From: Streptomyces sp. P3
GTDB taxonomy: Bacteria > Actinomycetota > Actinomycetes > Streptomycetales > Streptomycetaceae
Length of the DNA stretch: 64,000 nucleotides
Assembly: GCF_003032475.1 (NCBI RefSeq)
Contig: NZ_CP028369.1
Coordinates: 434,001-498,000, forward strand
Direction: 5' to 3'
Shown: piece by piece, positions 24,611 to 41,476 of the stretch
Layout of the letters: each line of letters opens with the position of its first letter
How positions within the stretch are numbered: the first letter of the stretch is position 1
Program-made: the position numbers and the translations under genes
The notes under the pieces: model-generated
What the model saw: only the letters and a program-made list of their open reading frames with translations
The model's database searches: none
What the model was told of the DNA's origin: nothing

Positions 24611-24683
24611 GCCCGCCATGCTCGCATCCCCGCCGAACCACTCGTCGCGGGAAGAACCGCGGGCCCGCGGGCGCTGTCGTGAC

Positions 24684-25044: not shown

Positions 25045-25827
25045 ATGGACAAGAAGACCACTTCACGCGACGGCACCTCCCTCGCGTACGGACGCACCGG
25101 CGCGGGTCCCGCGGTGATCCTGGTGAGCGGGGCGATGTCGACGGGGGCCACGGTGACGCCGTTCGCCGGGCCCCTCGCCGACCGCTTCACCGTCGTCTCC
25201 TACGACCGCAGGGGCCGGGGCGAGAGCGGCGACACCAGGCCCTACGACGTCGCCCGGGAGGTAGAGGATCTGGCCGCGCTCGTGGAGGCGGTGGGCGGCG
25301 AGGCGTCGCTGTACGGGCACTCGTCGGGCGGCGCCCTGGTCCTGGAGGCGGCGGCGAGCGGACTGCCGCTGCGCGGCGTCGCCGTGTACGAGGTGCCGTA
25401 CGCCGTCTATGAGGGCGGCGCGAAGGAGCGGGCCGAGTACACCGACAGCCTCACCGAGGCGCTGGAGCACGGCCGGCGCGGGGACGCGGTGGAGCTGTTC
25501 CTACGGCTGACGGGCCTGGCCGAGGAGATGATCCAGGGCGCCCGCCAGTCGCCGATGTGGGCCGGGATGGAGGCGCTCGCCCCGAGCCTCGCGTACGACG
25601 ACGCGGTGATGGGCGGTGGACTGGTGCCCCGTGACCTGCTGGCCTCGATCACCGTGCCGGTCCTGTCCCTCGGCGGCGGTGCGAGCCCCGACTGGATGCG
25701 CGAGGCCGCCCGCACGGTGGCCGAGTCGGTGCCGCAGGGCACGTACCGGGTGCTGGAAGGCCAGTCGCACATGGTGGACCCTCAGGCGCTCGCGTCGGCG
25801 CTGACGGAGTTCTTCTCGTCCCTCTAG
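25045..25827 (+). CDS. Alpha/beta-fold hydrolase
   Basis: 260-residue cytosolic hydrolase. The oxyanion/N-terminal strand reads VILVSGAMSTGA, followed by YDRRGRGESGD; the nucleophile elbow is GHSSGG (~residue 93). A late Asp in GGGASPDWM and His in LEGQSHMVDP complete the triad. Substrate not predictable. Begins at an ATG 37 bp after the DUF427 gene. Confidence 0.88.
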   Translation: MDKKTTSRDGTSLAYGRTGAGPAVILVSGAMSTGATVTPFAGPLADRFTVVSYDRRGRGESGDTRPYDVAREVEDLAALVEAVGGEASLYGHSSGGALVLEAAASGLPLRGVAVYEVPYAVYEGGAKERAEYTDSLTEALEHGRRGDAVELFLRLTGLAEEMIQGARQSPMWAGMEALAPSLAYDDAVMGGGLVPRDLLASITVPVLSLGGGASPDWMREAARTVAESVPQGTYRVLEGQSHMVDPQALASALTEFFSSL

Positions 25828-26015
25828 GCGATGGTCCCGCTGCCCGACGGTCCCGCCAGGCGGCGGCCGCGGTCACGCGCGTGGTCCGGCGGACGGAGGA
25901 GAGTGTGCGTACGCTCCGTGATTCGGCCCGGGCTTCGAGTAGGTGAAACCCCAGGTCGGTACCGACCTGGGGACAGCTTTCGTGCTATGGCACCTTGGGG
26001 TCGACCCCCGCCTCG

Positions 26016-26585
26016 TCACCGAAGCGAAGCGCTGATTTCCCCGTCGAAGGTGAGCACGATGAACATGCCGTTGCCGTTCACGCCGGCGTCCCGCTTGTTC
26101 GCCTCCAGCGTGGCGTAGACAGCACCCCGGTAGACGATCTGTGCGCGGTAGTGGTGCGGGCCCACCTTCGTGATCTTGGCCGTCGAGCCGTCGGGAAGCT
26201 TGAAGGAGCCGGGCCCGCTGTGGCCGCCTCCGAACCAGGAGTGCACCTCCCCGTCGAAGGTGAGCACGACGAACATGTTGTTGCCGTTCACTCCGGCGTC
26301 CTGCTTGTTCGCCTCCAGCCTGGCGTAGACAGCACCCCGGTAGACGATCTCCATGCGGTAGTGATGGGCCCCGAGCTTGTAGATCTTGCCCGTGCTGCCG
26401 TCCACCAACTTCACGGTGCGCCAGGGCGACGCCGTCGCGGATGTGGCCGTCGCCGTGACCCCGGCCCGGTGCGCGGTCGGTGTCGCGGCGAGGGCGGTTG
26501 CGGCGGGCGCCAGCAGAGCGGCCGTCAGAACCGTGCCGGTCAGGGCGCGGACGACTGCGCGGCGGGGCGCCTTCCATGTCGACAT
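26016..26585 (-). CDS. Secreted protein with two tandem ~70-residue repeats
   Basis: 189-residue protein with a Sec-type signal peptide (RRAVVRALTG, hydrophobic LTAALLAPAATAL, Ala-Ala-Thr cleavage region ~35). The mature part consists of two near-identical units, each with DGST-KI-K, HHYR--IVYRGAVYA-LEANK and DAGVNGN-MF-VLTFDGE. The period is 210 bp at DNA level (26041 versus 26251), so this is a recent internal duplication. Possibly a beta-rich cell-surface domain; no known family recognised. AGGAG 12 bases before the ATG supports the start. It borders the accessory block. Confidence 0.8.
   Translation of the reverse strand: MSTWKAPRRAVVRALTGTVLTAALLAPAATALAATPTAHRAGVTATATSATASPWRTVKLVDGSTGKIYKLGAHHYRMEIVYRGAVYARLEANKQDAGVNGNNMFVVLTFDGEVHSWFGGGHSGPGSFKLPDGSTAKITKVGPHHYRAQIVYRGAVYATLEANKRDAGVNGNGMFIVLTFDGEISASLR
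26041..26370 (-). repeat. Two direct 210-bp-spaced repeats inside the secreted protein gene
   Basis: The stretch starting ccgtcgaaggtgagcacga at 26041 recurs at 26251 with only scattered changes for roughly 120 bp (to the end of the agcaccccggtagacgatct segment). It encodes the two repeat units of the secreted protein. Confidence 0.8.
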
Positions 26586-26760
26586 GCGGGTCTCCTAGGT
26601 GAAGAGTCAAAGGGATGTGAGCCGCAGATCGCCTGTCTCCTCGTGTGCGGGGCCATGAGAATCGACGTCTTGCCTGATCGAACTTATTGATCGTTTTCAG
26701 CGGATTCGGCCATTCCCTGTCACAGTGGTGCAACAGGACCGTCGGACCGTCATGGCCTTG

Positions 26761-26880
26761 GCCGCGATCCTCGCCGACCCCACCGGGCGCGTGCCCTCGT
26801 ACGGCACGATCGCCTGGCCGGGGGCGTCGCCGCGAACCGGCTCGGCGAACGTCGCCTTCAGGAAGCCGTCGAGGTTCGCG
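26761..26880 (-). pseudogene. Remnant of an mnmA 3' end
   Basis: About 40 codons matching the C-terminus of the resident MnmA. The remnant reads TFAEPVRGDAPGQAIV then YEGTRPVGSARIA, versus [16 protein letters not shown] and [13 protein letters not shown] in the intact protein (24 of 30 residues identical). At DNA level I count about 77 of 92 matching bases between 26761-26852 and 40377-40468, with weaker similarity to 26880. The frame has no start of its own and runs past the normal stop into unrelated sequence (to 26697), so it is not a functional gene. Confidence 0.8.
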
Positions 26881-26949
26881 GGGGTCGTCCTCGTCGACGA
26901 TCGTTTGCGCGCGGCCTTCCGTCCGGACCGCCGCGAAGCCGGGCGTCGG

Positions 26950-27708
26950 CTACGGCTGGTGCGTCGGCGAGGAGACGGCGCCGCGCCACAGTCGCGGCTC
27001 CTCCTGCGCGAAATGCCGTTCACGCACGTCTGCGTCGGGTAGCGCGAGCCGGACGGCCCGTCGGAAAGCCGCTCCGTGGCCGGGGTGCTTGAGGTGGCAG
27101 AGTTCATGGACCAGAACGAGGTCGACCAGGACGACCGGCAGCTGTATCACCGCCCAGTGCACGGTGATCGCGCCCTCAGGGGAACAGGCGCCCCAGCGAC
27201 GGCCGAGGTCTCGCACCTCGACGCCCGCCGGATCACGTACTCCGGCCAGTGCCGCCAGCGGCGGCAGCCGGGCAGCGAGCCAGCGCTCCCCGCGGCTGCT
27301 GTACCACTGCACAAGGGGCCTCGCGTCAGCGGCAGCCGACCGCGATCGGGGCAGCTCCAGCCATCCCTGTCGCAGTCGTACGTGACTGCTGCCGTCGTCG
27401 GGAGTGAGCCTGAGCCGGTACCGACGGCCCAGGTAGGCGAAGCCCTCGCCGCCGATCAGGTCCCTGACCGGTTCGGCCGCCCGCAGGTCCTGTCGGCGGC
27501 GGACCTCGGCGGCGAGACGCGGCATCCGGCCACGCACCGCGTCGGCGATCTCTTTCGGATCCGCGCCCGCGGGAACCGCGAAGAGCACCCGGCCGTCCTC
27601 GGCGATCTCGATACCGAGGGTGCGGCGCCGTGGCCGCACGACGACGTCCCACCGCCACCCCCCGGGCACGGGGAGATCAGCGATGGCCTGTTCGACGACG
27701 GTGCTCAC
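26950..27708 (-). CDS. YgjP-like (DUF45) zinc metallopeptidase, restriction-linked
   Basis: 252-residue protein of the YgjP/DUF45 family (M48-like fold). The zinc motif HELCHLKHPGH (HExxH plus a third His, ~residue 207) is intact, preceded by the family segment LGRRWGACSPEGAITVHW. Genes of this family are often found beside type I restriction genes; their role is unknown. The GTG at 27708 has AGGAAGAG at good spacing. It is the last gene of the block, 61 bp downstream of hsdR on the same strand, so likely cotranscribed with it. Confidence 0.88.
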   Translation of the reverse strand: MSTVVEQAIADLPVPGGWRWDVVVRPRRRTLGIEIAEDGRVLFAVPAGADPKEIADAVRGRMPRLAAEVRRRQDLRAAEPVRDLIGGEGFAYLGRRYRLRLTPDDGSSHVRLRQGWLELPRSRSAAADARPLVQWYSSRGERWLAARLPPLAALAGVRDPAGVEVRDLGRRWGACSPEGAITVHWAVIQLPVVLVDLVLVHELCHLKHPGHGAAFRRAVRLALPDADVRERHFAQEEPRLWRGAVSSPTHQP

Positions 27709-27769
27709 CCGCTCTTCCTACCATCCGGCTACGACATCACCCTGCCCGCACTCGTCAGCGGTCACCGGG

Positions 27770-30700
27770 TCAGGTGTCCCCGCCGTCCGCCTCGTCGCGC
27801 GGCTGGTATCCGAGGAAGTACTCGGACCTCTCCACGGCCAGCTCCGTCAGATGGCTCGCGAGGTCGCCGATGTCGTCCCAGTCCATGTCGAGCCAGATCT
27901 CCAGGTGCTCGCAGAGTTCGCTGCGGATGCGGTTACGGGCGGCGATCTGCGTGTGTATCTGCGGACGTCGGACGAGGACCGACATCTCCCTGGTGAGACC
28001 GCGGGCCGCCCGGATCAGATCGGTGCCCGGCGGCCAGGGGTCCCGCTCGGCTTCTTCGGCGTGTTGCTGGAGCAGTCCGAGGACCAGTCGTTCGGTCCGG
28101 GAGTCGAGAGCGTCGCCGTCCTCCGGCTCCCGCTCGGCCGCGGCCACGTCCCCGACAAGACGCTTCAGGTCGGCGGCGGCCTGCTCGAAGTCGTCCTGCA
28201 TCCGCGCGATGATCTCTTCGAGTCGGACGCTGAACCTCTGGTAACCCGCCCGGTCACCGCCGATCTTCGCGGTGATACGCAGCTTCAGCGAGCCCGTCAT
28301 GTACGAGCACCGCGCCCGGGGGTCGGCGTTCGCGTCGACTCGTTCCATGAACTCCGGATCGGTGAGTTCGACAGGCGGGATCCGCTGCCGGATCCCGGTG
28401 GTCTCGATGTGCTGCGAGATGAGCCGGCGGACCTTGGCCCCGTAGCGACGCGGGCTGAACTGTTCACGGCCATCGAGGTAGCGGCGTCTGGCCATGTACT
28501 GCAGGGTCCCCAACTGGCCTGCCAGATCACGGTACTTCAGTGCCTCCGGATCCGGCAGGACCGCGTTGAGCGCGGTCAGGAAGTCGCGGACGCGTTCGTC
28601 GAACTCGCCGCGCCGCAGCGGGTCGTCGAGGCTCTCGCCGAGGAAGTCCTCCCACTGCGACTCGTCGCCGGGGTCGGTGACGTTCTGCCCGGCCAGGAAG
28701 CGGGTGACCTTCGCTGCGAGGTCTTCCAGGAGGGCCTTGGCGGCGGCGTCGGACCGCAGCAGCAGTCCGTCCCGGTCCGGGCTGCGGCCGTCGGGCTGCG
28801 GTCCCTGGTAGTCCGGCTGGAGGTGGTCCACGGATACGTTCCGGTAGCCGAGGACGTGGCGCAGGTGCTCCTGGTCGTAGGAGGCGAGCGAGCCGGCCAG
28901 TTCGGGGCCGATGCCGATGTAGTCGACGACCTGGCCCCACTTCTTGGCCGGGTAGGGCCGGTTGGTGCGGGCCACGGCCTGCAGCAGTCCCGCGCCGGAC
29001 AGCTTGCAGTCCAGGTAGAGGACCTGCTCGACGGGGGCGTCGAAGCCGGTGAGCAGCATCGACTGAACCACCAGGAAGGCCATGGTCTCCGGTGGCGCGC
29101 CGCCCTGCGTGTCCGGTGGCGCGGGCGGCCCGCTGTCGGCGGGCAGGTCCAGGTCGACGTTCCACACCTGGCCGCCGCTCGCCGGGGTGCCGATGCCGGA
29201 GGGCTGCAGCCCGTGCGTCCTGACGTTCCATGCCGGGTCGGCCGTGATATCGCGCGGAGGCAGCCCCTTCTTGAAGCGCTCGATGTGCGCGTCCTGGTGG
29301 CTCTTGGTGATCCACGGCCGCCATGTCTCCGGGTCGCTGCCGCCCTGCCTGGCCTGGGAGATGACGACGGCCGCGTCGAGCGTTCGCAGTACCTCGCGAT
29401 CCGGCAGGAGCATGAGGAGCGCCCGCTCCTCGTCGTCGGCTTCGAGCGCGGCCATGGGGTCGGCGGTCAGGGCGGGGTCGAGCGCGTCGAGGCGGGCGAC
29501 GAGCCGGTCGCGGGCGGCGAGCAGCGCGGTGTGGTAGCGGACGGCGGCGAGCCGGGAGACGGTGGCGATCTGCGCCCCGAAGCGGTCGGGCAACGCGGTG
29601 CGGGCCCAGTGGTCGAGCATGTGCTCGGCCTTGGCCTCGATCACCGATGGAGCCTCCAGAATCTCCTTGCGGCGGCCGAACTTGCGCAGCGCCTCGGCCC
29701 GCAGCTTCGGATCCGACGGCACCTTCTCGTCGAACCGGGCGTCGAGGGCGGCCTGTTCGATGACTTCGAGCGGTACGGCGTACGCCTCGTAGCGGACGGG
29801 CACGACTGACCGGTCGAGTTCGGCGTCGCGCAGGGTGTACGTGTCGGCGTACGGGCCGAAGATCTCCTCGCTGCGCTTGCGGTTGTCGCTGATCACCGGA
29901 GTGCCGGTGAAACCGACGAAGGCGGCACGCGGGAGCATGGCCCGCCAGCGGGCGGCCTGCCACTTGTCCTGGCCCCGGTGGGCCTCGTCGATCAGGACGA
30001 CGACGTGGTGGTGGGGATTGGCCACCCGGTTCTGTACGTATCCCTCGCCCTCGCCACCGTCCTCGACATCATCGTCGTCGGGTGCGGCGTCGGGCAGTGA
30101 CTCCTCCCGGCCGTCGTCCACGGTGTCGTCGCGCTGCGCCTTCTGCAGGGTGACGAGGACGACGTCCCCGACGTCCACCTCCAGGTACTTTCTGGCCCGC
30201 TTGACGCTCGGCGCGCGATGCACCTTCTCCTCGGTGGCGGCGAGGCTCGCCCGGATCTGCTTCTCCAGGTCGATGCGGTCGGTGACCACGACCACCTTGT
30301 GCGACTTCAGAGCGGGCCGGCTGCGCAGGTGCCGGACGAGGAACGCCATGGTCAGGCTCTTACCGGAGCCCTGGGTGTGCCAGACGACACCGCCCCGGTG
30401 ACCGACAGCCACGCCGGAAGCCGCCTGCCGGTCCCGCTCCTCCAGCTTCCGCGTGAGCGCCTTCACCGCCTTGAACTGCTGGTGGCGGCCGACCAGTTTG
30501 ACCGTACGCTGACCGCTGCCGAGCCGGGTGGTGAAGTCCCTCACCAGGTCGAGGAGATGGGCAGGGCGCAGCATCCCGGCGACGAGGATCTCCTGGTCGG
30601 TGAGGGCTGCCGACGCGGGCTTGCGCACCTCCTCGCGCACGAGGTCCTCACTCACGGGCGCGACCGTGCGCCACGGGGCGAAGTGCCGGGGTTCGGCGGT

Positions 30701-31429
30701 GACCGTGCCGGTCTCGGCGTGGTCGCGGTCGGTGGCGACCAGGACCTGCGCGAAGCGGACGAACTCGGGTACGGCGGCCGGAGAGTTGACGCCCGCGTAC
30801 CGGAGAACCTGGTCGACGGCCTCGTCCAGGGCGGCCCGCACGTCTCCCAGAGGGCCGGACACCACGGGCGCCTTGCACTCGATCACCACCCACGGCAGCC
30901 CGTTCACGAACAGCACGAGGTCGGGCGTGACGGGAGGGGCATCCTTCCGCTCGACCCGGAACTGGGAGACGACGAGCAGGTCGTTGCCGCCGCCGGGAGT
31001 GTCCGGGTGCTCCCCGAACTCGCCGTCCCAGTCGACGAGTCGTACGTGTTCGGGGTCGCCCTTCGTCCAGCCCGGCAGGGTGCGGGCGTTGAGGCCCTTG
31101 CGGAGGAGGTCCGTCACCTCCAGGTTCCCGGCGACGCCGTGTTCCCTCGGGCCCTGCCCCGGCGTGGTGCCCTGGACCAGGGCGAGGAGGCGGTCGAGTT
31201 GCGCGTCGCTCAGCCAGGGTTCCCCGTCCGACGGCCTCGGGTTGATCCTGGCCAGGGCGGACTTGAACCGGTCCGCGTACACGACGGTCTCGAAGCTCGT
31301 GCGGTCCGAGGCGCGCGACGCGGTGGCGGGTCCGGCGGCAGGTCCGCCCCGGAGATGGGTCCAGCCCATCGCCGTCAGCTGCTCGATCAGCGGCCGCTCG
31401 GTCCTGACGTACTCCGGCTGCTCCGCCAC
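27770..31429 (-). CDS. hsdR: Type I restriction enzyme, restriction/translocation subunit HsdR
   Basis: 1219-residue motor and nuclease subunit that translocates DNA with ATP and cleaves far from the recognition site. PD-(D/E)xK nuclease: Asp170 in VTPDLVLF and Glu184/Lys186 in VVIECKAP. Helicase motor: Walker A HTQGSGKS (351-358), DEAH (481-484) and motif III FTGTP (~510). An acidic low-complexity insert (~434-465) sits between motifs. The GTG at 31429 follows GGGGAGG. Separated from hsdS/hsdM by the Uma2/HATPase/XRE/DUF397 genes, so it needs its own promoter or read-through. Length and motifs predict an active protein. Confidence 0.96.
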   Translation of the reverse strand: MAEQPEYVRTERPLIEQLTAMGWTHLRGGPAAGPATASRASDRTSFETVVYADRFKSALARINPRPSDGEPWLSDAQLDRLLALVQGTTPGQGPREHGVAGNLEVTDLLRKGLNARTLPGWTKGDPEHVRLVDWDGEFGEHPDTPGGGNDLLVVSQFRVERKDAPPVTPDLVLFVNGLPWVVIECKAPVVSGPLGDVRAALDEAVDQVLRYAGVNSPAAVPEFVRFAQVLVATDRDHAETGTVTAEPRHFAPWRTVAPVSEDLVREEVRKPASAALTDQEILVAGMLRPAHLLDLVRDFTTRLGSGQRTVKLVGRHQQFKAVKALTRKLEERDRQAASGVAVGHRGGVVWHTQGSGKSLTMAFLVRHLRSRPALKSHKVVVVTDRIDLEKQIRASLAATEEKVHRAPSVKRARKYLEVDVGDVVLVTLQKAQRDDTVDDGREESLPDAAPDDDDVEDGGEGEGYVQNRVANPHHHVVVLIDEAHRGQDKWQAARWRAMLPRAAFVGFTGTPVISDNRKRSEEIFGPYADTYTLRDAELDRSVVPVRYEAYAVPLEVIEQAALDARFDEKVPSDPKLRAEALRKFGRRKEILEAPSVIEAKAEHMLDHWARTALPDRFGAQIATVSRLAAVRYHTALLAARDRLVARLDALDPALTADPMAALEADDEERALLMLLPDREVLRTLDAAVVISQARQGGSDPETWRPWITKSHQDAHIERFKKGLPPRDITADPAWNVRTHGLQPSGIGTPASGGQVWNVDLDLPADSGPPAPPDTQGGAPPETMAFLVVQSMLLTGFDAPVEQVLYLDCKLSGAGLLQAVARTNRPYPAKKWGQVVDYIGIGPELAGSLASYDQEHLRHVLGYRNVSVDHLQPDYQGPQPDGRSPDRDGLLLRSDAAAKALLEDLAAKVTRFLAGQNVTDPGDESQWEDFLGESLDDPLRRGEFDERVRDFLTALNAVLPDPEALKYRDLAGQLGTLQYMARRRYLDGREQFSPRRYGAKVRRLISQHIETTGIRQRIPPVELTDPEFMERVDANADPRARCSYMTGSLKLRITAKIGGDRAGYQRFSVRLEEIIARMQDDFEQAAADLKRLVGDVAAAEREPEDGDALDSRTERLVLGLLQQHAEEAERDPWPPGTDLIRAARGLTREMSVLVRRPQIHTQIAARNRIRSELCEHLEIWLDMDWDDIGDLASHLTELAVERSEYFLGYQPRDEADGGDT

Positions 31430-31531
31430 GCCTGTCCTCCCCGGCCACCGGCCACGATCCCCGCCCTCCGGCAGGCAGGACAGGTGATCGAAACTCTATC
31501 GGCGGCCGGTGAGCGTGGCGCGTGGTGCGCG

Positions 31532-31574
31532 CGGATCAGGCGGCGAGCACAGGGGAAGGTGGCCGGAAATCACC
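31532..31574 (-). repeat. 43-bp direct repeat, copy 1 (orphan HATPase 3' end)
   Basis: Matches 32294-32336 at about 39 of 43 positions. It encodes GDFRPPSPVLAA and a stop in the same sense as the intact HATPase C-terminus (GDFRPPPPVLAA), but here it is attached to no gene. It lies 10 bp after the Uma2 stop, so the two copies bracket the Uma2 gene. Confidence 0.8.
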
Positions 31575-31584
31575 TGCTCCTTGC

Positions 31585-32151
31585 TCAGAGGCGCGTGGTG
31601 TCCAGGACGATCCCGAAGGGCTCGGGCAGGGTGACCGGGGTGCCGAAGGGGTGGGGGCCGTCGGCCTTGGTGTAGCCGAGCCCGCCCGGCTCGGAGAACA
31701 GGGTGAGTTCACGGTTCTGCCGGTCGACCAGGAGGTACAGCGGAGCACCGTACTCGGCGTAGCGCTTGCGCTTGGTGACACGGTCCGTGTCGCCGTTGGA
31801 CTTCGAGGTGACCTCGACCGCCAGAAGGGTCAGGTCCGGGGTGACGACGATGTTGTCGTCCTGCGCGAGTTCCTCGGGGACGACGGCGATGTCCGGAACG
31901 TACCAGTTGGGCGAGCCGGGGAGGTCGATGTCCCCGGAACCCTCGACACAGCCGAGCTCGTCGACCCGGTCCTCGATCTGACGGCGAATGACCCGTGTGG
32001 CGCGTTCGTGGTCCCAGGTCGGCGGCACGGGTTGGATGATCCCCTCGATGATCTGTACGCGGCTGCCGGCCATGTACCTGATGGCGTGCTTCAGGGCTCG
32101 CTCGTGATCGATGTCCGCGTACCTGTCGTTGGGCTGCGGGTGAGTGCTCAT
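31585..32151 (-). CDS. Uma2-family putative endonuclease
   Basis: 188-residue member of the Uma2 (DUF820) group of PD-(D/E)xK-like proteins, abundant in actinobacteria and cyanobacteria and predicted to act on nucleic acid. Active-site-like residues are visible: Asp in YVPDIAVVPEEL and Glu in LLAVEVTSKSNGDTDR, followed by the conserved KRKRYAEYGAPLYLLVD. The ATG at 32151 with GGAGG upstream is preferred over the longer frame from 32196. Nested between the HATPase gene and hsdR and bracketed by a 43-bp direct repeat. Its substrate and any role in restriction are unknown. Confidence 0.85.
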   Translation of the reverse strand: MSTHPQPNDRYADIDHERALKHAIRYMAGSRVQIIEGIIQPVPPTWDHERATRVIRRQIEDRVDELGCVEGSGDIDLPGSPNWYVPDIAVVPEELAQDDNIVVTPDLTLLAVEVTSKSNGDTDRVTKRKRYAEYGAPLYLLVDRQNRELTLFSEPGGLGYTKADGPHPFGTPVTLPEPFGIVLDTTRL

Positions 32152-32293
32152 GGCGTCGTCGCCTCCTCTCGCGGAACGGCGTGACCGGTGTACCACGGAC
32201 GCGGTGACTCCTGGACCGGGATGCCGGCGTGTTCCCCGTACGGGTGATGAACACTGTCGGCGTCGATTGCGGGAAGGTACGGCACCCGGTGTA

Positions 32294-32336
32294 CGGATCA
32301 GGCCGCGAGCACCGGGGGCGGTGGCCGGAAATCACC
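32294..32336 (-). repeat. 43-bp direct repeat, copy 2 (3' end of intact HATPase gene)
   Basis: Contains the last 12 codons and stop of the HATPase gene plus four downstream bases; pairs with 31532-31574 (separation 762 bp). Confidence 0.8.
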
Positions 32337-32849
32337 ACCGAGAGCGAGCTCGAACCAGATGGTCTTGCCGCCCGGCCCGCCGTTGGGCCCGTCGACGTAC
32401 CCACAGCCGCCCCACCGGTCGGCGAGACTCTCGATGATGGGCAGCCCCCGACCGCAGAGAGCGAGAGCCGCGGGATCGGGCATCGCCGCGCCGGGCGCGA
32501 GCGGAGGCAGATCCGGACTCGCGTCCCAGACGCTCACGCGCAGCACGGGGCACAGCCAGTGCATGCGGACGATGACCGGGCCCTTGGTGTGCCGCACCGA
32601 GTTGGTGGCGAGCTCGCAGGTCAACAGCTCGGCCCGGTCGGCGAGTTCACCGATCCCGTGCGCGTGGAGCACGGCACGGAGGGTGCCCCGGACGATCCGG
32701 GGACCGCGTGGGTCGCAGGGGAAGTGGATCTCGTACACCCAGGGGGCGGTGAACGGGATCGGGGCGGGGTGGTCGCCGTAGCTCACGTCGTAACTGACGG
32801 GGTGGGTCGGCTCGTTGCCGGGTGCGGTGTTCGGGTCGTTACTGCTCAC
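32298..32849 (-). CDS. HATPase_c (anti-sigma factor-like) ATP-binding protein
   Basis: 183-residue protein with a GHKL ATPase fold like the RsbW/SpoIIAB serine kinases. Conserved boxes are the N box LTCELATNSVRHTKG, G1 SVWDASPDLPP, and G2 GRGLPIIESLADRWG. In Streptomyces such proteins often sit beside XRE-DUF5753 and DUF397 genes (WhiJ/AbaA-type clusters) and may act as partner-switching regulators. Here it reads divergently from the XRE gene across a 300-bp intergenic region. The C-terminal 12 codons are duplicated beyond Uma2. Confidence 0.88.
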   Translation of the reverse strand: MSSNDPNTAPGNEPTHPVSYDVSYGDHPAPIPFTAPWVYEIHFPCDPRGPRIVRGTLRAVLHAHGIGELADRAELLTCELATNSVRHTKGPVIVRMHWLCPVLRVSVWDASPDLPPLAPGAAMPDPAALALCGRGLPIIESLADRWGGCGYVDGPNGGPGGKTIWFELALGGDFRPPPPVLAA

Positions 32850-33149
32850 GAGGGTGTACCTCCGTGGTGCGGAACGGGATTGCGGTTCGGTCCTGCGGAA
32901 CGGGTTCGCTCTGTGACGCCGGTCGCGAACTGCCGGACGGCGGTGGCAATGCCGGGCCCCTGCCTTCCGGAGGGCAGGGGAGCCGGTGCGCTTCCGCCGG
33001 GCGGCGGGGACTCAAACGGCACGATTAACAAGGTACTGCAAGATCACATAACGTTGCTACGCGACTACACAGAAGAGTTAACCTTCAGATTCCGGTGGAC
33101 CGTGAGCCATCGACTCGGCACACTGTGCGCGAGCACACGGAGAGGCCCT
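32850..33149. promoter_or_regulatory. Divergent intergenic region between HATPase and XRE genes
   Basis: 300 bp without a convincing gene. It holds a hairpin (cccctgcc at 32957-32964, ggcagggg at 32973-32980) and an unusually AT-rich stretch at about 33018-33095 (acgattaacaaggtactgca and acagaagagttaaccttcag), a good place for the XRE promoter and binding sites. The XRE gene starts with GGAGAGG before its ATG. Confidence 0.5.
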
Positions 33150-34004
33150 ATGTCACCTCGGCAGACCCCGACCATCCTTCAACGCAGGTTCGGTACCGAG
33201 CTGCGACGGCTCCGCGAGGCGGCAGGTATGTCCGCGCCCACAGCCGCCGGACTGCTCGGCACGGACCGCACGGTCATCTCGAACGTCGAGGCCGGCCGCT
33301 TCGGCATCAGCGAGGAACGCCTGCGCCGCCTCGCCAGCATCTACGAGTGCGATGACGCCGACCTCGTCGACGCCTTGGCGGACCTGACCGGCAGTCGCAA
33401 GACCGGCTGGTGGGAGGAGTACCGGGGCAAGATCCCGCCTGGTTTCCTCGACGTCTCCGCGCTGGAGGATTACGCCGTCGGCTTGCGCACGGTGCAGATC
33501 GCGCACCTGCCCGGCTTGTTCCATACCGAGGAACACGCTCGCGCCATCTTCGAGTTGTTCTTCCCTCCACTCGCTCGCCTGGAGATCGAGCTGCGCGTGG
33601 CACACCGCCTGGCGCGCCAACGCGTGGTGACCGGTGACTCGCCCATCTCCTACTCGGGTGTCATCCACGAAGCAGCCCTGCGCATGCAGCTCGGCGGTCG
33701 CGATGTCGCCAGGGCCCAGCTCCAGCACCTGCTGGAGTCCAGCGAACGCCCCAACGTCACGCTACGTGTGGTTCCCTTCGAAGCAGGTGGCTTCCCCCTG
33801 CTCGGGGACTCCTCCGTCCTGTACGCCCAAGCGCCCAATCCCCACCTGGACACGGTCCATATGGACTCCCCCGCAGAGCCCGTGTTCATCGACTCACCAA
33901 CCCAACTGGCGAACTTCCGGACCCGGCTGGACATGGCGGAGAAGGTGGCGTTGACTCCCACCAAGTCCAGGGACTTCGTCCGCAAGATCGCCAGAGAACT
34001 GTAA
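33150..34004 (+). CDS. XRE-family regulator with DUF5753 (WhiJ-like)
   Basis: 284-residue DNA-binding protein. The N-terminal helix-turn-helix (LRRLREAAGMSAPTAAGLLG, DRTVISNVEAGRFGISEERL, ~residues 15-70) is followed by a DUF5753 domain (LRTVQIAHLPGLFHTEEHAR, LLESSERPNVTLRVVPFEAG). These proteins are typical of Streptomyces and usually pair with a small DUF397 protein; WhiJ affects development in S. coelicolor. GGAGAGG five bases before the ATG fixes the start. The DUF397 gene follows after 12 bp. Likely autoregulatory; it might regulate the adjacent restriction genes, but that is inference. Confidence 0.92.
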   Translation: MSPRQTPTILQRRFGTELRRLREAAGMSAPTAAGLLGTDRTVISNVEAGRFGISEERLRRLASIYECDDADLVDALADLTGSRKTGWWEEYRGKIPPGFLDVSALEDYAVGLRTVQIAHLPGLFHTEEHARAIFELFFPPLARLEIELRVAHRLARQRVVTGDSPISYSGVIHEAALRMQLGGRDVARAQLQHLLESSERPNVTLRVVPFEAGGFPLLGDSSVLYAQAPNPHLDTVHMDSPAEPVFIDSPTQLANFRTRLDMAEKVALTPTKSRDFVRKIAREL

Positions 34005-34016
34005 GAGGTGTCTCAC

Positions 34017-34211
34017 GTGCCCGGCCCGCAGTGGTTGAAGTCGTCATACTCCGACTCCGGTGGCAACAACTGCGTCGAGGTCGCCTCGGTACGAACAGGC
34101 GTTGCCGTGCGGGACAGCAAACGCCCGGCGAACGTGATCGTCACGGGCCGGGCGTCATTCGGTGCACTGATCGAAAGCCTCAGGTCCGGTTCACTCGGGA
34201 CCGGCCGCTGA
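34017..34211 (+). CDS. DUF397 small protein
   Basis: 64-residue DUF397 protein with the family motif WLKSSYSDSGGNNCVEVA, then VAVRDSKRP and a C-terminal [15 protein letters not shown]397 proteins are partners of XRE-DUF5753 regulators, sometimes described as toxin-antitoxin-like. The GTG at 34017 is chosen because AGAGG (34004-34008) has proper spacing; a GTG at 34008 would add three residues. The last 32 bp overlap the 3' end of hsdS on the other strand. Confidence 0.88.
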   Translation: MPGPQWLKSSYSDSGGNNCVEVASVRTGVAVRDSKRPANVIVTGRASFGALIESLRSGSLGTGR

Positions 34212-35415
34212 GCAGGTCTTCGACCACGCCCTGCTGAACCTGCTTGAGCTTGGCAATCTGCCGCTGAATACCCTGACTGCGCTTCCGGCTGGCAGAAACC
34301 GCAGCGACCACCTTCCGCTGGATGGCCTTCGGAACGTCCGGGACCATTAGCTGCCGCACCGCGCTCTGGCCAATGTTCTTCATGCTGGCGCTCGTGCCGG
34401 TGGCTCGCGACCGCACCTGACTGCGTACCGAGGGGCTGAGCAGGGCGAGTTCGATGAACTCCGCTTCGGCCACGCCCGTGTCGGGTACGAGTCTCAACGT
34501 CTTGTCGCTCAACATCAGACGTTCGGCGCGTTCCCGAACCACGCAGGCAAGTCCCACGAGTTCCTCAGTGTTGGCACGCGTCATGAGAAGGTCTCCGACG
34601 CAAACCCGGTACCGCGCGTTGATGAACTCCGCCTCGCGGACGACCTTGTTCTCAATAGCCTTGAACCACCCTGGTTGCACGGCGCTCACCTTCAAGACGC
34701 CCCACTCGCCGTCGCCCGCAGGCGTGTCCTCAGCCATGGGACTCTTGCCCGCCTCGATGGAACTCAGCCATCGACCAAGCTCAATACGGCCTCCAGACTC
34801 AGCCATCACCCCAGCCACAATGGCGTTCTCGACGGTCCTGAGCTTGCCCAGCTCCCGCTCCAGCGCCCCGATCCGCCGCTCGAACGCCTCGTGTGCGGCG
34901 ACGATGTCGCGTTGTTCAGGAAGGGGCGGAACTCCAATCTCCAGCGCATTGAGTCGATTCGTGTCCAGGCGCCCTGTGCCATGGCTGGTCTCCTCGACCA
35001 TGCTCAGGATTGTCGGCGTCAGCACCCGCATGGCATACGCCAGGTAGTACGGATCAATGCCGTCGTCTGGAACAAGCGCCTTACAGTCCTGGCCGAAGGC
35101 CACTTCACGCTGTGTCACCCCAATCCGAAACTCTGACTTGAGGCTCATCCCTCTCACAATGAAGAGCACGGCGCCCTTGTCGACCAGCCGTGAACCGTTC
35201 TCTGCCCCAAGCCGAGTAACACGGCGCTCAGAATCCGTAATGCGGAGGTGCTTCATGCTCGCGCCGCTGATCCACGGGATCTCCCCGTCCCAGTACGCCT
35301 CGTTCGAGGTGCTCGGCGTGCCTCCAGACATCCACCGCCCGGCATCCGCCAAGCTGACCCGCTGCCACTCCTCAGGCCAGGAATGGCGCCCAGGCTTCAC
35401 TGCTTCAACGCCCAT
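34180..35415 (-). CDS. hsdS: Type I restriction enzyme specificity subunit HsdS
   Basis: 411-residue DNA recognition subunit with two target-recognition domains and two conserved helical repeats. TRD1 includes [20 protein letters not shown]; the first conserved coil is [23 protein letters not shown]2 spans roughly residues 210-360; the second coil is [20 protein letters not shown]. The ATG at 35415 overlaps the hsdM stop by 11 bp, so the two are translationally coupled. Base composition and codon use look less GC-biased than the neighbours, as is usual for variable TRDs. The 3' end overlaps DUF397 on the opposite strand. Confidence 0.95.
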
Positions 35416-38017
35416 AACCCAGCACCCCCAACCACTCCGCAAGCCCCTTCGCCGCGTCGCCGCTCTCGCTCTCCAGGTCCGTCAGCGACACCTCGTACTT
35501 CTCGGCCCAGCGACGGAAGGAGGCGACGATCTCGCGGCGGCCCGTCGCAAGCGCCACGTTCAGGCGGTCGGACAGGTCGCGGCGCAGGACGGCGAGGACG
35601 ACTTCCTCCGGGCCGCCCGGTTCGGACAGCTTCCACTTGGCCGCCTGCTTCAACTCCGGCAGGAAGCTGTCGTCCAGCGCCTTGCGCTTCTTGCGTGCCG
35701 CCGTCAGGGCCTTCTTGGCCGCCGTCAACGCCCTGTCCAAGGCGACGAGTTCCGCCGGGTCAACCGGCTCCGCCGGTTCACCGGACGCGGCGTCGGACTC
35801 CTCGTCCGTGTCCGTACCCGCGTCCGCCACCGCCGACCTCGCCTCAGCCGCCGTCTTCGCCGCGGCCTCCGCCTCCGCGAGAGCCTTGTCGGCCGCCTTG
35901 ACCAGTTCCAGGAACTCCGGGATCAACTCCCGAACGACCGGCTGGTCGAGGGCCCGGCGGCGCTCCGCCGGGGAGATCGACGAACGCTTCGCGTCCTCCG
36001 CGCCACCCGGGACCGCCGGGTCGACGATCGCCTCGACGGAGTCGACCCAGCCCTCCAGGACCCGCTCGAAGCCGCCCGCCGCGAGGGCCTTCATGTCGTA
36101 GCGGTTCTCCGTCCACCACGCGGCGATGATGCCGGCGGTCGTGAACTCGTCCAGGACCCCCGCTCCGCCGACCGCGGCCGTGAACCCGTCGAGGAGCCCG
36201 CCGCGCAGATCCATCAGTTTCCGGTCCGCCGCGAGCTGCGCGAAGAGACCGGAGTTCTTCGACCACCACCCGTCGTACGTCTCGCGCAGCTCCGCCTCCC
36301 GCGCGTACGTCAGTCGCGGAATTCGGGCGGCCGTCGCCTCCGCGCCCTCCGGCAGGAAGTCGTAGTACCCGCGTGCGTCATCACCGGCGTCACCGTCCCG
36401 GCGCGCGAACAGCGAGCTGGCGTCGACCCCATACGCCTTGAACAGCCCCTCCTTGGCCGCGACTTCGGCGACCGGCACGCCGCCGTACAGATGCGCCCGT
36501 ACGTCCTGCGGCTCCGCGGGCGGTGAGTTGTCCACCCAGCGGCGGATGTTGAAGTTCGCCTCAGGGACGCCCTTCGCGTCGGGGGCGAGGAGTTCGTCGC
36601 GGTGGACCTCGCGCGAGTAGCCGTCGATGAGACGCCATTCGCGGAAGACCGTGACGATCTTCTCGATGTGCTCGGGGCCGAGTTCGTTCTGGTTGCGGCC
36701 GGGCGTGAAGTCCCGGTCGGCGTTGATGAAGAGGACCTTCTCCAGGCGCTTCGAGTCGGTCTTCCCGTGCGGGGGCCGCAGGATCAGGATGCAGGCCGGG
36801 ACGCCCGCGCCGTAGAACAGGTTCGGGCCGAGGCCGATGACGGCCTCCACGCAGTCCGCGCGGAGCATCCCGATGCGGATGTCGCGTTCCTTGCCGCCCC
36901 GGAAGAGCACCCCGTACGGCATGACGACGGCCGCTCGTCCGCCGTCCTCCTCCAGCACGGACGCCATGTGCTGGACGAACATCAGGTCGGCCTTCTTGCC
37001 GCTGCCGGGCGTCCAGCCCCAGTGCATCCGCTTGCCGTGGTCCTCGTCGGCCTTGGCTACGGCGTCCTCGTCGTACGGGAGCGAGAACGGAGGGTTGGAC
37101 AAGATCGCCGAGAACTTGCGCAGCCGCCCGTTCTCGTCGAGGTGGAGCGGCTCGGCGAGGGTGTCGCCGTGCTGGAGGTCGAAGGTGTGGATGCCGTGCA
37201 GGACCATGTTCATGCTGGCCATGGACCAGGACGGGCCGTTCTTGTCCTGCCCGTTGACCGACAGTTCCTCCGGATTGCCGCCGTGTTCCTCGACGTGCTC
37301 GCGGGCTGCGATCAGCATGCCGCCGGAGCCCGCGCACGGGTCGTACACCGACTCCCCGGGCTGTGGGTCGACCAGGCGCACCATCATCCGCACCACCGAC
37401 CGCGGCGTGTAGAACTCGCCGCCGCGCTGGCCGGCCGTGTCCGCGAACCGGCCGAGAAGGTACTCGTAGGCCGCGCCCAGCATGTCGGGGAACTCGAAGT
37501 CCTCGTTGCGCAGCCGGTAGAGGCTGAAGTGCCGGATCAGTGAACGGAGTTCGGGATCGGTGAAGCGCGGCTTGGTGCCGACCACCTCGTTGAAGCTGAT
37601 GTGCGAGGCGATGCCCGCGAGCAGGTCGTTGCCCTCCTGGAGCGCCACCAAAGCCTCGTCGAGGCCCTGGCCGACCTTCTCGGTCAGGGCCATGATGCCG
37701 GGCGCCGGGCTCTGCGGCGTCTCCGGGTCGTGGTGCGGTCCACGCCACCAGCGCGCTCGCGGCGGCACATAGAAGACGCGGGGATAGGCAGCCGGATTGT
37801 TCGCCTTGACCAACGCCTTCTTCTCGTCGCGGCCGGTCTGCGCGAGGCGCTCCTCGTACACCCGCTTCCACTCCGGCTCGAACTCGTCCGAGGCCCGCTT
37901 CAGGAAGAGCATCCCGAAGATGAAGTCGCGGTACTCGGAGGCGTCCATCCGGCCGCGCAGGATGTCGGCGGCCGAGAAGAGATGGCGTTCGAGCTCGGGC
38001 AGGGTGATTCTGGCCAC
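35405..38017 (-). CDS. hsdM: Type I modification methylase HsdM with long C-terminal extension
   Basis: N6-adenine DNA methyltransferase subunit. N-terminal HsdM domain ([20 protein letters not shown]), SAM-binding motif I DPCAGSGG (226-233) and catalytic motif IV NPPF (308-311) are intact. At 870 residues it is far longer than the classic ~500; the extra part from about 520 on includes a charged, Ala/Lys/Glu-rich coiled-coil region ([40 protein letters not shown]). The GTG at 38017 follows GAAGGATC. First gene of the hsdM-hsdS pair, 120 bp downstream of rloB. Confidence 0.95.
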
Positions 38018-38072
38018 GCGCTGATCCTTCGTACGGAAATGGAGGTGCTACGGAAGGTTAGACGGCCCATCG

Positions 38073-38092
38073 GCGCGGGAGGTAACCCGCGC
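38073..38092 (-). terminator. Hairpin between rloB and hsdM
   Basis: gcgcggg (38073-38079) and cccgcgc (38086-38092) pair perfectly around a 6-base loop, in the 120-bp gap between the rloB stop and the hsdM start. Could end the rloAB transcript or form part of the hsdM leader. Confidence 0.5.
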
Positions 38093-38137
38093 GGAACCGT
38101 ACATTCGCCGCTGTACAACGAGGGGTGCGGCCGCCGC

Positions 38138-38905
38138 TCAGACCTTCACGATGCCCAGACTGACCAGGAGTCGCCACACGTCGGTGGAGGGGTCCCGGTT
38201 CAGGACGTCGCAGTTCTTGGCATGCCCGGAGCGGGCGGCCCGTTCCTTCGCCGAGCGACCATACTTCGGCTCCTCGAACGTGGCGTTGGCGGGCTTGCAC
38301 GAATCGTGCTCGCACTGACCGACCAGGGCTCGCGCGTGCTGCACCGCCGCCTTCTCCTTGTCCCTCAGCGCCTTGGTACGGGCATCGTTGAGACCCTTGT
38401 CGGGCTTGTCGAACCGCCTGTATGCGGGGTCGGCCCTGCGCAGCTTCTCCAGGACGTGCGTGTTCTTCGCCGCGCCCTGGGCGCCGCCGAAGGGCTGGAA
38501 GTGCAGCAGCAGCCACAGCTCGAACGAAGGGTGGGAGAAGCAGACCTCGGTGTCCGAGTCCGCTGCGGCCTCGAAGGCCTCGTGGATGTCGTGGTGGCTG
38601 TCGCGGTCGAAGAGCACCCAGGTCTCGTCCTCCCCCTGAGCGGCCTCCACCACCGCCTTGACGGTACGGGACGGGATCAGGCCGTCGGCCTTGCGGACCG
38701 GCTTGATGGTGAAGGGCGGTCGGCCGGTCTCGCTGTCCCCGCTCCCGAACTCCTTGTTGAGGTACCGCAGGTAGTCGTACTCGGTCACCTCGCCCTCACA
38801 CCCCACGTACAGCACCCGCTCGCGACGTGAGTACCGCGACGGAGGCGCCTGCGGCGGCATCACCGTGCTCGCCGCGTCCTTCTTCGACCTGCGCCTGCTG
38901 CTCAT
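38138..38905 (-). CDS. RloB-like (AbiLii-type) TOPRIM-like protein
   Basis: 255-residue RloB-family protein. Typical conserved sites: YVGCEGEVTEYDYLRYL (Glu38 and Glu42), the acidic pair in VLFDRDSHHD (Asp100, Asp102) and HPSFELWLLLHF, consistent with a TOPRIM-like metal-binding fold. The family includes restriction-linked RloB of Campylobacter and AbiLii of the lactococcal AbiL phage-abortive system. It starts 22 bp after rloA, so the two form a pair; the ATPase probably gates a nuclease activity, which is an inference. Symbol left empty because only family membership is certain. Confidence 0.88.
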   Translation of the reverse strand: MSSRRRSKKDAASTVMPPQAPPSRYSRRERVLYVGCEGEVTEYDYLRYLNKEFGSGDSETGRPPFTIKPVRKADGLIPSRTVKAVVEAAQGEDETWVLFDRDSHHDIHEAFEAAADSDTEVCFSHPSFELWLLLHFQPFGGAQGAAKNTHVLEKLRRADPAYRRFDKPDKGLNDARTKALRDKEKAAVQHARALVGQCEHDSCKPANATFEEPKYGRSAKERAARSGHAKNCDVLNRDPSTDVWRLLVSLGIVKV

Positions 38906-38927
38906 GCCCCGTGCCCACCCCGTTCTC

Positions 38928-40226
38928 TCACGCTGTCGCTGCCGCCTTCTCCTCCAGCCAGGACACCTCGCGGGCGATCTCGCCCGGGGTCACCCGGGGC
39001 ACCCCTCCGTACCGGCCACGCAGGTAGCCCCGCTCCAGGTCCTCGCCCGCCTCCGGATGGGCGGCGACCAGTGGATACAGCTCGCTCGCGCCGGACTTCG
39101 TCTTCGCGGTGAGCCATACCTGGTCGCGGCCGAGCGGACGGTCGAGTACGGCGTTGCCGAGCAGTGTGGCGTCATGGGTGGTGAAGATCAGTTGGGCGCC
39201 CTTGGCATTGGCCTTACGGTCCTGGAAGAGACGGACGACCTCGGCGGCCAGCGCGGGGTGGAGGCTGGAGTCGAGCTCGTCGACCAGAAGCGCGGACCCG
39301 TTGTCGAGGACGGTGAGCATGGGGCCGAGGAAGGCGAACCAGGAGTGGGTACCGAAGCTTTCCTCGGTGAGGAAGTCGAGGGCCACCGCTTCTGTCTCCT
39401 CCGTCCGGTGCCGAAGGGAGACCGCGCCGGTGTCCGGATCGAGGTCGAAGCCGGTGACCCCCAGGTCCGCGGCGGCAAGGAGCTGGACGAGTCGTTCACG
39501 GTAGCCGGTGTTGTCGTGCAGTTCGGTGAGGCGGCGCCTGGTCCAGTCGGCACGGTGGCTGATGTCCTCACCCGGGGTCATCAGCCACAGGTTGTTCAGG
39601 AACCAGCGGTGCAGGGCGGACAGCTGAGGGTCGTTGAGGGTGGCCGCGGTGGAGAGGAAGAGGGCGTTCGGCCGGGTGAGGGCGACCAGGTCGTCGCGGC
39701 GGCCTGTGAAGGCCGGGCTCTCGAACAGGTACTCGTCGCCGTCCTCCGCCGGGCGGTCCGCCTCCCTGTCGAACCAGACCTGCCGGATGCCGCCCGGGTA
39801 GGCGTGCAGCCACTCGGCCTCCACCCGGTCGTCGGAGAGCTCGAAGCCGTACGTGTAACGGACGGGGGTACGGGCCCCGAGGACCAGGTCGACCTCGAAG
39901 AGGGTGGTCTCCTCGGCGCTGGCGGCGTCCAACTTGAAGGGCTGCCGGTGAGGCACCCCGGGATACTTGGCCCAGTCCGCGAAGGAGGTACGTACCGCCT
40001 CCCGCATGGCGTGGAACGCGCTGAGCAGGTTGCTCTTGCCGGAAGCGTTCGCACCGAAGATCCCGGCCACGGGCAGCACCATCACATGCCCGCCACCGTC
40101 CTGAGCGACCCCGCTGTCCCGCGCGATGCTGTCCAAGCCCTCGACACTGTCTGCTGCAGCGACAAGTGTCAGCTCGGCCTCATCCCGGATCGAGCGGTGA
40201 TTCGCCACTCGAAAGCGCAGGAGCAC
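38928..40226 (-). CDS. RloA-like (AbiLi-type) ABC/AAA ATPase
   Basis: 432-residue AAA_15/21-type ATPase of the RecF/SMC-like ABC class. Walker A GANASGKS (58-65), Walker B ALLVDELDSSLHP (~312-324) and His351 in FTTHDATLLG are visible. Its N-terminus LRFRVANHRSIRDEAELTLV is typical of such defence ATPases. The GTG at 40226 is fixed by GGGAGG six bases upstream; the longer frame runs into mnmA. Transcribed with the downstream RloB-like gene. The mnmA stop is 120 bp upstream with GC-rich hairpins between. Confidence 0.9.
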   Translation of the reverse strand: MLLRFRVANHRSIRDEAELTLVAAADSVEGLDSIARDSGVAQDGGGHVMVLPVAGIFGANASGKSNLLSAFHAMREAVRTSFADWAKYPGVPHRQPFKLDAASAEETTLFEVDLVLGARTPVRYTYGFELSDDRVEAEWLHAYPGGIRQVWFDREADRPAEDGDEYLFESPAFTGRRDDLVALTRPNALFLSTAATLNDPQLSALHRWFLNNLWLMTPGEDISHRADWTRRRLTELHDNTGYRERLVQLLAAADLGVTGFDLDPDTGAVSLRHRTEETEAVALDFLTEESFGTHSWFAFLGPMLTVLDNGSALLVDELDSSLHPALAAEVVRLFQDRKANAKGAQLIFTTHDATLLGNAVLDRPLGRDQVWLTAKTKSGASELYPLVAAHPEAGEDLERGYLRGRYGGVPRVTPGEIAREVSWLEEKAAATA

Positions 40227-40345
40227 CGTCCACCTCCCGAAGGGGCGGGGTGGCCCCGCCGCCGGCTCACACTGTGCGGGCCCTCCGCGGGGCCAGCCTA
40301 TGCCGGGGGGGTCGGGCCGTGCCAGCTCCTGCGAGTCCTCGATGA

Positions 40346-41476
40346 TCAGGCTGTGGCAGCTTCCCGGCGAACCGTCGTCGCGATGGTCGCCGAACCCACC
40401 ACGCGCGTGCCGTCGTACAGCACGATCGCCTGACCGGGCGCCACGCCCCGGACCGGCTCGGTGAACGTGACCTGGAGGCGGTCGTCGACGAGTTCGGCGG
40501 CCACCTCGGTCTCGCCGCCGTGGGCGCGCAGCTGGGCCGTGTAGACGCCGGGGCCGGTGGGGGCGGCGCCGCACCAGCGGGGCTTGATCGCGGTGAGGGC
40601 GGTGACGTCGAGGGAGGCGGCGGGACCGACCGTCACCGTGTTGTTCACCGGGGAGATGTCGAGGACGTAGCGGGGCTTGCCGTCGGGCGCCGGGGTGCCG
40701 ATGCGCAGGCCCTTGCGCTGGCCGACGGTGAAGCCGTACGCGCCCTCGTGGGTGCCGACCTTCGCGCCGGACTCGTCGACGATGTCGCCCTCGGCCCTGC
40801 CCAGCCGGTTCGCCAGGAAGCCCTGGGTGTCGCCGTCGGCGATGAAGCAGATGTCGTGCGAGTCGGGCTTCTTGGCGACGGCGAGGCCCCGCCGCTCCGC
40901 CTCCGCGCGGATCTCGCCCTTGGTCGTCATCGTGTCGCCGAGGGGGAAGAGGGCGTGGGCGAGCTGCCGGTCGTCCAGCACGCCGAGGACGTACGACTGG
41001 TCCTTCGCCATGTCGGAGGCGCGGTGCAGCTCGCGTGTGCCGTCCTCGCGGACCAGCACCTTCGCGTAGTGGCCGGTGCACACCGCGTCGAAGCCGAGCG
41101 CGAGCGCCTTGTCGAGCAGCGCGGCGAACTTGATCTTCTCGTTGCAGCGCAGGCAGGGGTTGGGGGTGCGGCCGGCCTCGTACTCGGCGACGAAGTCGTC
41201 GACGACGTCCTCGCGGAAGCGGTCGGCGAGGTCCCAGACGTAGAACGGAATGCCGATCACGTCGGCGGCGCGACGGGCGTCGCGGGAGTCCTCGATGGTG
41301 CAGCAGCCCCGCGCGCCGGTGCGGAACGACTGCGGGTTCGCGGAGAGCGCGAGGTGGACGCCGGTCACGTCGTGGCCGGCCTCCGCGGCGCGGGCGGCGG
41401 CGACGGCGGAGTCGACACCGCCGGACATGGCGGCGAGTACGCGAAGGGGGCGGGGGCGCTGCGAGGTCTCAGTCAT
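40346..41476 (-). CDS. mnmA: tRNA-specific 2-thiouridylase
   Basis: Installs the 2-thio group on U34 of Lys, Glu and Gln tRNAs using ATP and persulfide sulfur. 376 residues, normal length. PP-loop [11 protein letters not shown] (~18-24), catalytic Cys108 in [12 protein letters not shown] and persulfide-accepting Cys210 in [12 protein letters not shown] are present, with a C-terminal beta-barrel ([19 protein letters not shown]). The ATG at 41476 has AAAGGG upstream. A divergent copy of its 3' end lies 13.6 kb away at the far edge of the defence block. The likely sulfur donor is the cysteine desulfurase at 42349-43512. Confidence 0.97.

Follow-up and report, generated by a model that had tools for sequence, protein, structure and literature searches.

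Homology-facilitated illegitimate recombination has been proposed to explain displaced immunity genes of the type VI secretion system (T6SS) and displaced 3' regions of Rhs genes (Kirchberger et al. 2017, PMC5361080, in the sections drawn on here). For the defence hotspots of Pseudomonas aeruginosa, the portions of the study used here leave open how integrase-free defence islands are built and whether they are transferred through conserved flanks (PMC10250203). We analysed a 64,000-nucleotide stretch of the Streptomyces sp. P3 genome (positions 434,001 to 498,000 of contig NZ_CP028369.1; hereafter the window, numbered from its first letter), in which a block of defence-type genes lies directly 3' of mnmA, the gene for tRNA 2-thiouridylase, and a displaced copy of the mnmA 3' end stands on the far side of the block. 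We think it likely that this defence block is locus-bound, that the host's homologous recombination has spread it with mnmA as the anchor, and that joins of another kind have now and then left displaced gene ends. A literature search, with the gene queried as mnmA and as trmU, returned no title or abstract start naming mnmA as a defence locus.

The displaced mnmA end and the foreign tract

The features that bear on the history of the locus are listed first; distances are counted from the mnmA stop, and genomes (G) and loci (L) are cited by our own handles.

40346..41476, minus strand: mnmA, tRNA 2-thiouridylase, intact (start placed by eye); the final ~53 bp, 40346-40398, are foreign relative to the host's lineage
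26872..26949, minus strand: probable decayed mnmA piece, ~-765 to -690 from the stop, aligned to the post-YgjP DNA of G017 and G322
26756..26872, minus strand: displaced mnmA 3' end, ~-142 to -26 from the stop (the fragment of an earlier note)
26016..26585, minus strand: putative secreted repeat protein, within the foreign tract (open reading frame, ORF; no Pfam family)
25045..25827, plus strand: alpha/beta hydrolase gene, foreign allele, grouping with G084/G260/G181
24640..24650, no strand: approximate right breakpoint of the foreign tract, from the identity jump against G225/G013

An earlier note, made from the sequence alone, had pointed to an mnmA-like 3'-end fragment in the same orientation as the intact gene and 13,616 bp from it. 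Both observations hold: positions 26756-26872 and 40372-40488 form a direct repeat of 117 nt at 79% identity, and the recomputed spacing has the same value. A search of the host genome (9.85 Mb, single contig) with 26700-27100 as query returned the mnmA end (81% over 110 bp, E 1.9e-22). An mnmA profile, run with nhmmer over 122 flanks, matched the fragment at E 5.8e-21, and 3-mer-shuffled versions of these 122 flanks gave no match below E 1. The profile and shuffle results, together with the recurrence of such ends in other genomes, lead us to reject that the fragment arose by chance or is part of an unrelated gene. A tRNA as insertion target was likewise rejected: the window contains no tRNA gene.

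The flanks consist of mnmA and up to 18.4 kb downstream, taken from 101 of the 107 genomes that topped an mnmA-similarity list (G251, G151, G099, G022, G152 and G097 were not included). Nine further holders of the block and 11 further genomes brought the set to 122 loci including the window, of which 13 carry the block and 109 lack it; this sample is biased towards genomes with a window-like mnmA.

Judged by alignment, the window's remnant is probably longer than 117 nt and extends through 26872-26949. This stretch aligned to a decayed mnmA piece 3' of YgjP in G017 with a score of 69 (best of 1000 shuffles, 29) and to the corresponding piece in G322 with a score of 38 (shuffle best 27). Its alignment to G017's own mnmA was marginal (35 versus a shuffle best of 32), and alignments to the mnmA of the window and of G225 were insignificant, their scores being reached by 34 and 40 of 1000 shuffles, respectively. 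The nhmmer run with the mnmA profile did not pick up this stretch by itself. The final codons of YgjP appear to run into mnmA-derived DNA.

Comparison with the closest relatives, G225 and G013, showed that the window's mnmA is 94-100% identical to theirs in each segment up to -50 but only 63-65% identical in the last 50 bp, where G225 and G013 match each other at 98%. Differences to G225 numbered 29/1037 in the body versus 19/53 in the tail (Fisher p 1.5e-14), and those to G013 33/1037 versus 18/53 (p 1e-12). The window's hydrolase gene groups with G084, G260 and G181 (support 0.993); a grouping with G225/G013 was rejected by the approximately unbiased (AU) test (p-AU 3e-61, 32 of 96 hydrolase rows). 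At ~24,645 (mnmA stop+15,700), identity to G225/G013 rises from 84-85% to 96.5-96.8%. The divergent mnmA tail, the hydrolase grouping and the identity jump together indicate that a foreign tract of ~15.75 kb (~24,645-40,398) replaced native DNA, with breakpoints at about -53 in mnmA and at ~24,645. The tract holds the mnmA tail, the block, the remnant, the putative secreted protein gene and the hydrolase gene. The last 24 bp of mnmA and the bases that follow hardly differ among the window, G017, G315 and NRRL S-31, while the G322 tail is like its relatives' (94.0% to L116). In both G225 and G013, mnmA stands directly before the alpha/beta hydrolase gene, the arrangement that the earlier note had suggested looking for.

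That note had offered two origins for the fragment: an mnmA end brought from another species, or a displaced native end that had decayed. Neither fits as stated, as neither copy in the window looks native; most likely the displacement took place in a previous host, and the remnant came along with the tract. On these comparisons it would be older than the insertion in the window.

The putative secreted protein gene contains an internal direct repeat of 172 nt at 82% identity (window 26038-26419).

The block at mnmA across Streptomyces

The block usually sits directly 3' of mnmA and is locus-bound in that sense. Near-full-length YgjP at a minimum of 59% identity was found in 13 of 392 Streptomyces genomes (the next long match was at 45%), a distribution far from the presence in nearly all of them that would have refuted the earlier note. 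In all 13, YgjP lies 3' of mnmA together with other block genes, although G246 is reduced to the HsdR end and YgjP, and the block of G315 is partly decayed. The AAA start lies 122-207 bp past the mnmA match in 12 of the 13. The same search of 392 genomes found only a piece of YgjP in G259 (43 aa at 72%).

A scan of named genomes with HsdM gave 45 loci, 24 of them with HsdM at 61% identity or above, and in 19 of these 24 AAA lies 117-247 bp from mnmA. In S. sparsogenes mnmA is 3.5 kb away and in NBS 14/10 ~10.8 kb away, apparently on the same contig. Eight of the 19 overlap the first set, giving 24 distinct genomes in which the block stands at mnmA, among which two assemblies of one species are possible. 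Gene order in G017, G147 and G352 was taken from the first gene scan together with L185, L201 and L196 of the HsdM scan. Ten of the other 21 HsdM loci (HsdM 41-52%), mostly from Streptomyces, have AAA and RloB before HsdM and no mnmA within the stretch examined (L205, L206, L207, L209-L212, L214, L219 and L224). YgjP is present in nine of these ten distant AbiLi-RloB-HsdM loci, which suggests that the peptidase may be a working part.

The hydrolase gene was detected in 91 of the 109 block-free loci, at up to 300 bp from mnmA in 77, at 300-1000 bp in six and at more than 1 kb in eight. The other 18 gave no hydrolase match; L057 among these is short (6.7 kb), and L042, L045 and L048 are short too. 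Other DNA of 1.8-5.9 kb lies between mnmA and the hydrolase gene in L053, L061, L063, L067, L074, L079, L104 and L111, and the gap may be a wider insertion site. Between the ends of the two genes, L113 (G101) carries a 24-bp tandem repeat in about six copies.

The earlier note's placing of the fragment at the far boundary of an inserted block is supported, and displaced mnmA ends recur behind the block in G017, G322, NRRL S-31, AC1-42W and S. dysideae. The far block end is covered in 21 of the 24 holders (L189, L190 and L225 stop before YgjP and are hence uncounted), and mnmA DNA lies 3' of YgjP in six of these 21. In S. glaucescens (G017), SID12501 (G322) and NRRL S-31, the mnmA match begins at profile position 326-327 (~-773), at the YgjP end. 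The window has this common old YgjP-mnmA junction by alignment, though nhmmer alone recovers only its -142..-26 part. The displaced pieces differ in where they start: ~-773, -526, -130 and -112 from the stop.

The G017 remnant comprises -773..-651 at 72.7% and -526..-26 at 90.0%, both measured against its own mnmA, and these identities suggest that it probably consists of two layers of different age. As raw blastn of mnmA pieces was noisy, the rows used are those of G017, G381 and the window. The remnant groups with G017's own mnmA and that of G380 (0.883), and the G017 hydrolase gene groups with G380 and G148 (0.977). This hydrolase gene (L033) appears 3' of the remnant as overlapping pieces in different frames, and may therefore be broken, or the assembly may be in error.

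Streptomyces sp. AC1-42W contains a perfect 103-bp mnmA repeat (-112 to -9), its copies 14,223 bp apart, and the sequence past the right copy resembles the DNA 3' of mnmA in block-free G115; the flank comparison rests on G115 and G154, two of five relatives. A decayed mnmA piece was found in S. dysideae (E 1.7e-9), and G381 has a copy of the mnmA tail in a locus lacking the block (77%, E 6e-9). Several other candidates were set aside. Tail duplications in G332, G387 and G101 (L046, L102 and L113) look like simple tandem repeats, and many genomes gave weak nhmmer matches 9-17 kb downstream, none better than E 1.7e-4, which are probably background, as is a weak G381 tail match in nhmmer (E 0.43).

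Gene content, exchanged parts and a nested insertion

The genes of the block, read from mnmA outwards, and the nested repeat are as follows.

38928..40226, minus strand: AAA_21 ATPase, AbiLi-like (Pfam PF13304 2e-33; PADLOC AbiLi 8e-90)
38138..38905, minus strand: RloB / AbiLii-like (Pfam RloB 8e-26; PADLOC AbiLii 5e-23)
35405..38017, minus strand: HsdM, type I methyltransferase (Pfam N6_Mtase 6e-86; PADLOC MTase_I 7e-228)
34180..35442, minus strand: HsdS, specificity subunit (Pfam Methylase_S 8e-12; PADLOC Specificity_I)
33105..34004, plus strand: XRE/DUF5753 regulator, approximate start (Pfam DUF5753 1e-46)
32298..32849, minus strand: HATPase_c_2 protein (Pfam 1e-7)
32294..32336, minus strand: HATPase 3' end as the first of two copies of the nested 43-nt repeat (repeat search)
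31585..32196, minus strand: Uma2-like protein, nested insertion (Pfam 3e-22; PADLOC PDC-S03)
31532..31574, minus strand: displaced HATPase 3' end, second copy, 91% (repeat search)
27770..31429, minus strand: HsdR, type I restriction subunit (Pfam SWI2_SNF2, HSDR_N; PADLOC REase_I 3e-74)
26950..27708, minus strand: YgjP-like metallopeptidase (Pfam 9e-39); junction common to G017 and G322

By Pfam and PADLOC the type I restriction-modification set is complete (HsdR, HsdM and HsdS), and PADLOC identifies an AbiL pair, the AbiLi ATPase adjoining AbiLii. The earlier note took everything between the two mnmA copies to be defence-type DNA. This stands for HsdR, HsdM, HsdS, AbiLi, AbiLii/RloB and Uma2; HATPase and YgjP matched no PADLOC model, and the XRE regulator matched only control-protein/capH models. 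From family membership, the block would be predicted to have anti-phage activity.

For AAA, RloB, HsdM, HsdR and YgjP, the window's DNA matches that of G017, G322 and NRRL S-31 at 92-94% identity. The XRE gene reaches only 72% in G017 and NRRL S-31. At the protein level the other restriction-modification subunits stand at 93%, whereas HsdS is far lower: 59% in G017, pieces at 34-41% in G322 and pieces at 35-75% in NRRL S-31. By these identities, HsdS and XRE are exchanged parts, and the HsdS pattern is that of specificity exchange.

In the window and in G322, the Uma2 gene has a copy of the HATPase 3' end on either side (43 nt, 91% in the window). G017, G315 and NRRL S-31 have a single copy and no DNA match to Uma2. 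The nested Uma2 gene 3' of the HATPase gene shows the same displaced-end signature as the block at mnmA.

Proposed routes of entry and comparison with known systems

In the reading we favour, the island would consist of type I restriction-modification genes, the AbiL and regulator/HATPase pairs and YgjP; it would usually be kept directly 3' of mnmA and be transferred between Streptomyces species via the host's homologous recombination, probably with no enzyme of its own. On the left side, donor DNA would pair with the recipient's mnmA. The right side could be closed by a crossover in the farther conserved flank, as at ~24,645 in the window, or by a join inside the recipient's mnmA, probably formed without homology; the second route would keep mnmA intact in front of the block and place the 3' end of the recipient's gene, whatever its length, on the far side. 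The window's fragment would have formed as such an end in a previous host and come in with the entire ~15.75 kb tract. We infer the molecular route of the right-hand joins and the transfer vehicle, and the anatomy of the loci suggests a homologous left and a non-homologous right join, with the left end of AC1-42W native-like.

Several observations weigh against this reading. In three of the 24 loci with close HsdM relatives (S. chumphonensis, S. aidingensis and Streptantibioticus ferralitis) mnmA is on a different contig, which indicates that the block is not confined to mnmA. No remnant was detected in 15 of the 21 examinable holders. Block DNA is barely more alike than mnmA itself (90-92%), and among the close holders the core flank was measured in G315 only. 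In G017 the tree leaves undecided which copy is native, the support for remnant plus intact gene being just 0.417. In AC1-42W the last bases of the left copy and the first post-stop bases also resemble G115, so a foreign left end is not demonstrated there. Over all holders, mnmA tails are not unusually alike given their bodies (residual -0.44, reached by 1335 of 2000 random sets). This randomisation does not support a common block-borne mnmA end in all holders, and such an end is therefore seen in a subset only.

A site-specific integrase element might instead have entered the mnmA 3' end, restored the gene, displaced its end and later lost its integrase. A restored target gene with a displaced fragment is the signature of tRNA-gene islands as Islander describes it in the part drawn on here, and other tRNA-modification genes are reported to serve islands (trmE at its 3' end, dusA at its 5' end). 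The AAA start, which is close to mnmA in 12 of the 13 holders and in 19 of the 24, also fits. SGI1 carries an integrase; among the window's block proteins none was found by Pfam or PADLOC, in agreement with the earlier note. Nor was one found in 26 gap ORFs of nine loci (among 25 of 28 Pfam families listed), which yielded one DDE_Tnp_4 transposase, or in 25 ORFs upstream of the block at four other loci (19 Pfam families). Gap ORFs were kept if they had at least 100 aa and a third-position G+C of at least 0.75; the L188 gap yielded none. Across the 13 holder genomes, no PF00589 tyrosine-integrase match lay on the block's contig at 100 kb or less from it (among ~150 of 179 matches listed), and none of 62 PF00239 resolvase matches did. 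The displaced pieces vary in start and length and define no constant duplicated attachment core. With no integrase found and no such core, an integrase attachment site is a disfavoured interpretation of the remnant, and the different starts argue against classical site-specific insertion at a fixed site. Of the insertion at a gene 3' end that the earlier note described, the inserted block with a displaced end is supported and a classical fixed-site event disfavoured; we regard the lost-integrase history as very unlikely.

One ancient insertion, inherited vertically with many losses and with the remnant decaying in situ, is similarly improbable. It would account for divergent block versions at the same place and for possible scars 3' of mnmA in three block-free genomes: a YgjP end in G259 (71%, 42 aa), an HsdM piece in G091 (63%, 60 aa) and a HATPase piece in G222 (51%, 47 aa), the last being weak because HATPase is a common family. 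Block presence and absence require at least nine changes on the mnmA tree of 122 rows, a count that does not distinguish gain from loss. Vertical descent is hard to reconcile with G315, whose HsdR and YgjP are 93% identical to the window's (HsdR 93.5%) over a core flank at 84.7%, and with G369, where the core flank is 86.0% and HsdR 70.7%. For the window itself, the foreign hydrolase allele and mnmA tail and the breakpoints disfavour it, as does the clean mnmA-hydrolase junction of G225 and G013.

It is also conceivable, though we consider it unlikely, that the mnmA repeats let RecA excise the block as a circle, which would re-enter another mnmA by a single crossover and so act as a recombinase-free mobile unit. 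The perfect repeat of AC1-42W, the displaced G381 tail without a block and the two-layer G017 remnant, as if an old remnant had been the arm for a new entry, are what such a unit could leave; the repeats that went undetected in most examinable holders (15 of 21) and the window's right breakpoint, which lies outside mnmA, speak against it. Doubtful as it is, a recombinase-free element with mnmA as both homology arms would spare mnmA on RecA excision, could enter the mnmA of any related species and would renew its right arm from each new host's gene end. If this were true, the nested Uma2 gene 3' of the HATPase gene would reflect the same principle on a small scale.

On the reading we favour, one block at one locus, with displaced ends of different ages, lets one read off how the block entered, moved and was lost within the genus, and AC1-42W, with its fresh 103-bp repeat, is a case in which excision and entry are directly testable. 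Neither an integrase nor a local event need be assumed where an island has a displaced gene end next to it; the one in the window was most likely imported with its tract.

The finding is a variant of known mechanisms. As in the core-gene-flanked exchange described in 2017 (PMC5635113, in the sections used here), no recognised mobile-element genes were found, core genes stand on both sides, and a foreign tract has its breakpoints in or near them; here, however, a single operon-like block is found again and again at the same gene, and joins inside mnmA are recorded by displaced ends. The P. aeruginosa core defence hotspots (PMC10250203, same portions) likewise hold defence genes between constant core flanks that are not obviously part of a mobile element, but cDHS1 ranges from 1 to 224 kb, whereas gene order here is nearly constant. 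Like this block, the islands at the trmE 3' end (SGI1) and the dusA 5' end are targeted to one end of a gene for tRNA modification (PMC8409611, PMC4482086); an integrase is reported for the dusA islands, and none was found here. With the T6SS and Rhs cases (PMC5361080, as drawn on above), the locus has in common that an old gene or its end has been pushed downstream and, probably, that homology anchors one side. It differs in its anchor, a housekeeping gene for tRNA modification that has no relation to the cargo, and in that the non-homologous join is one we infer.

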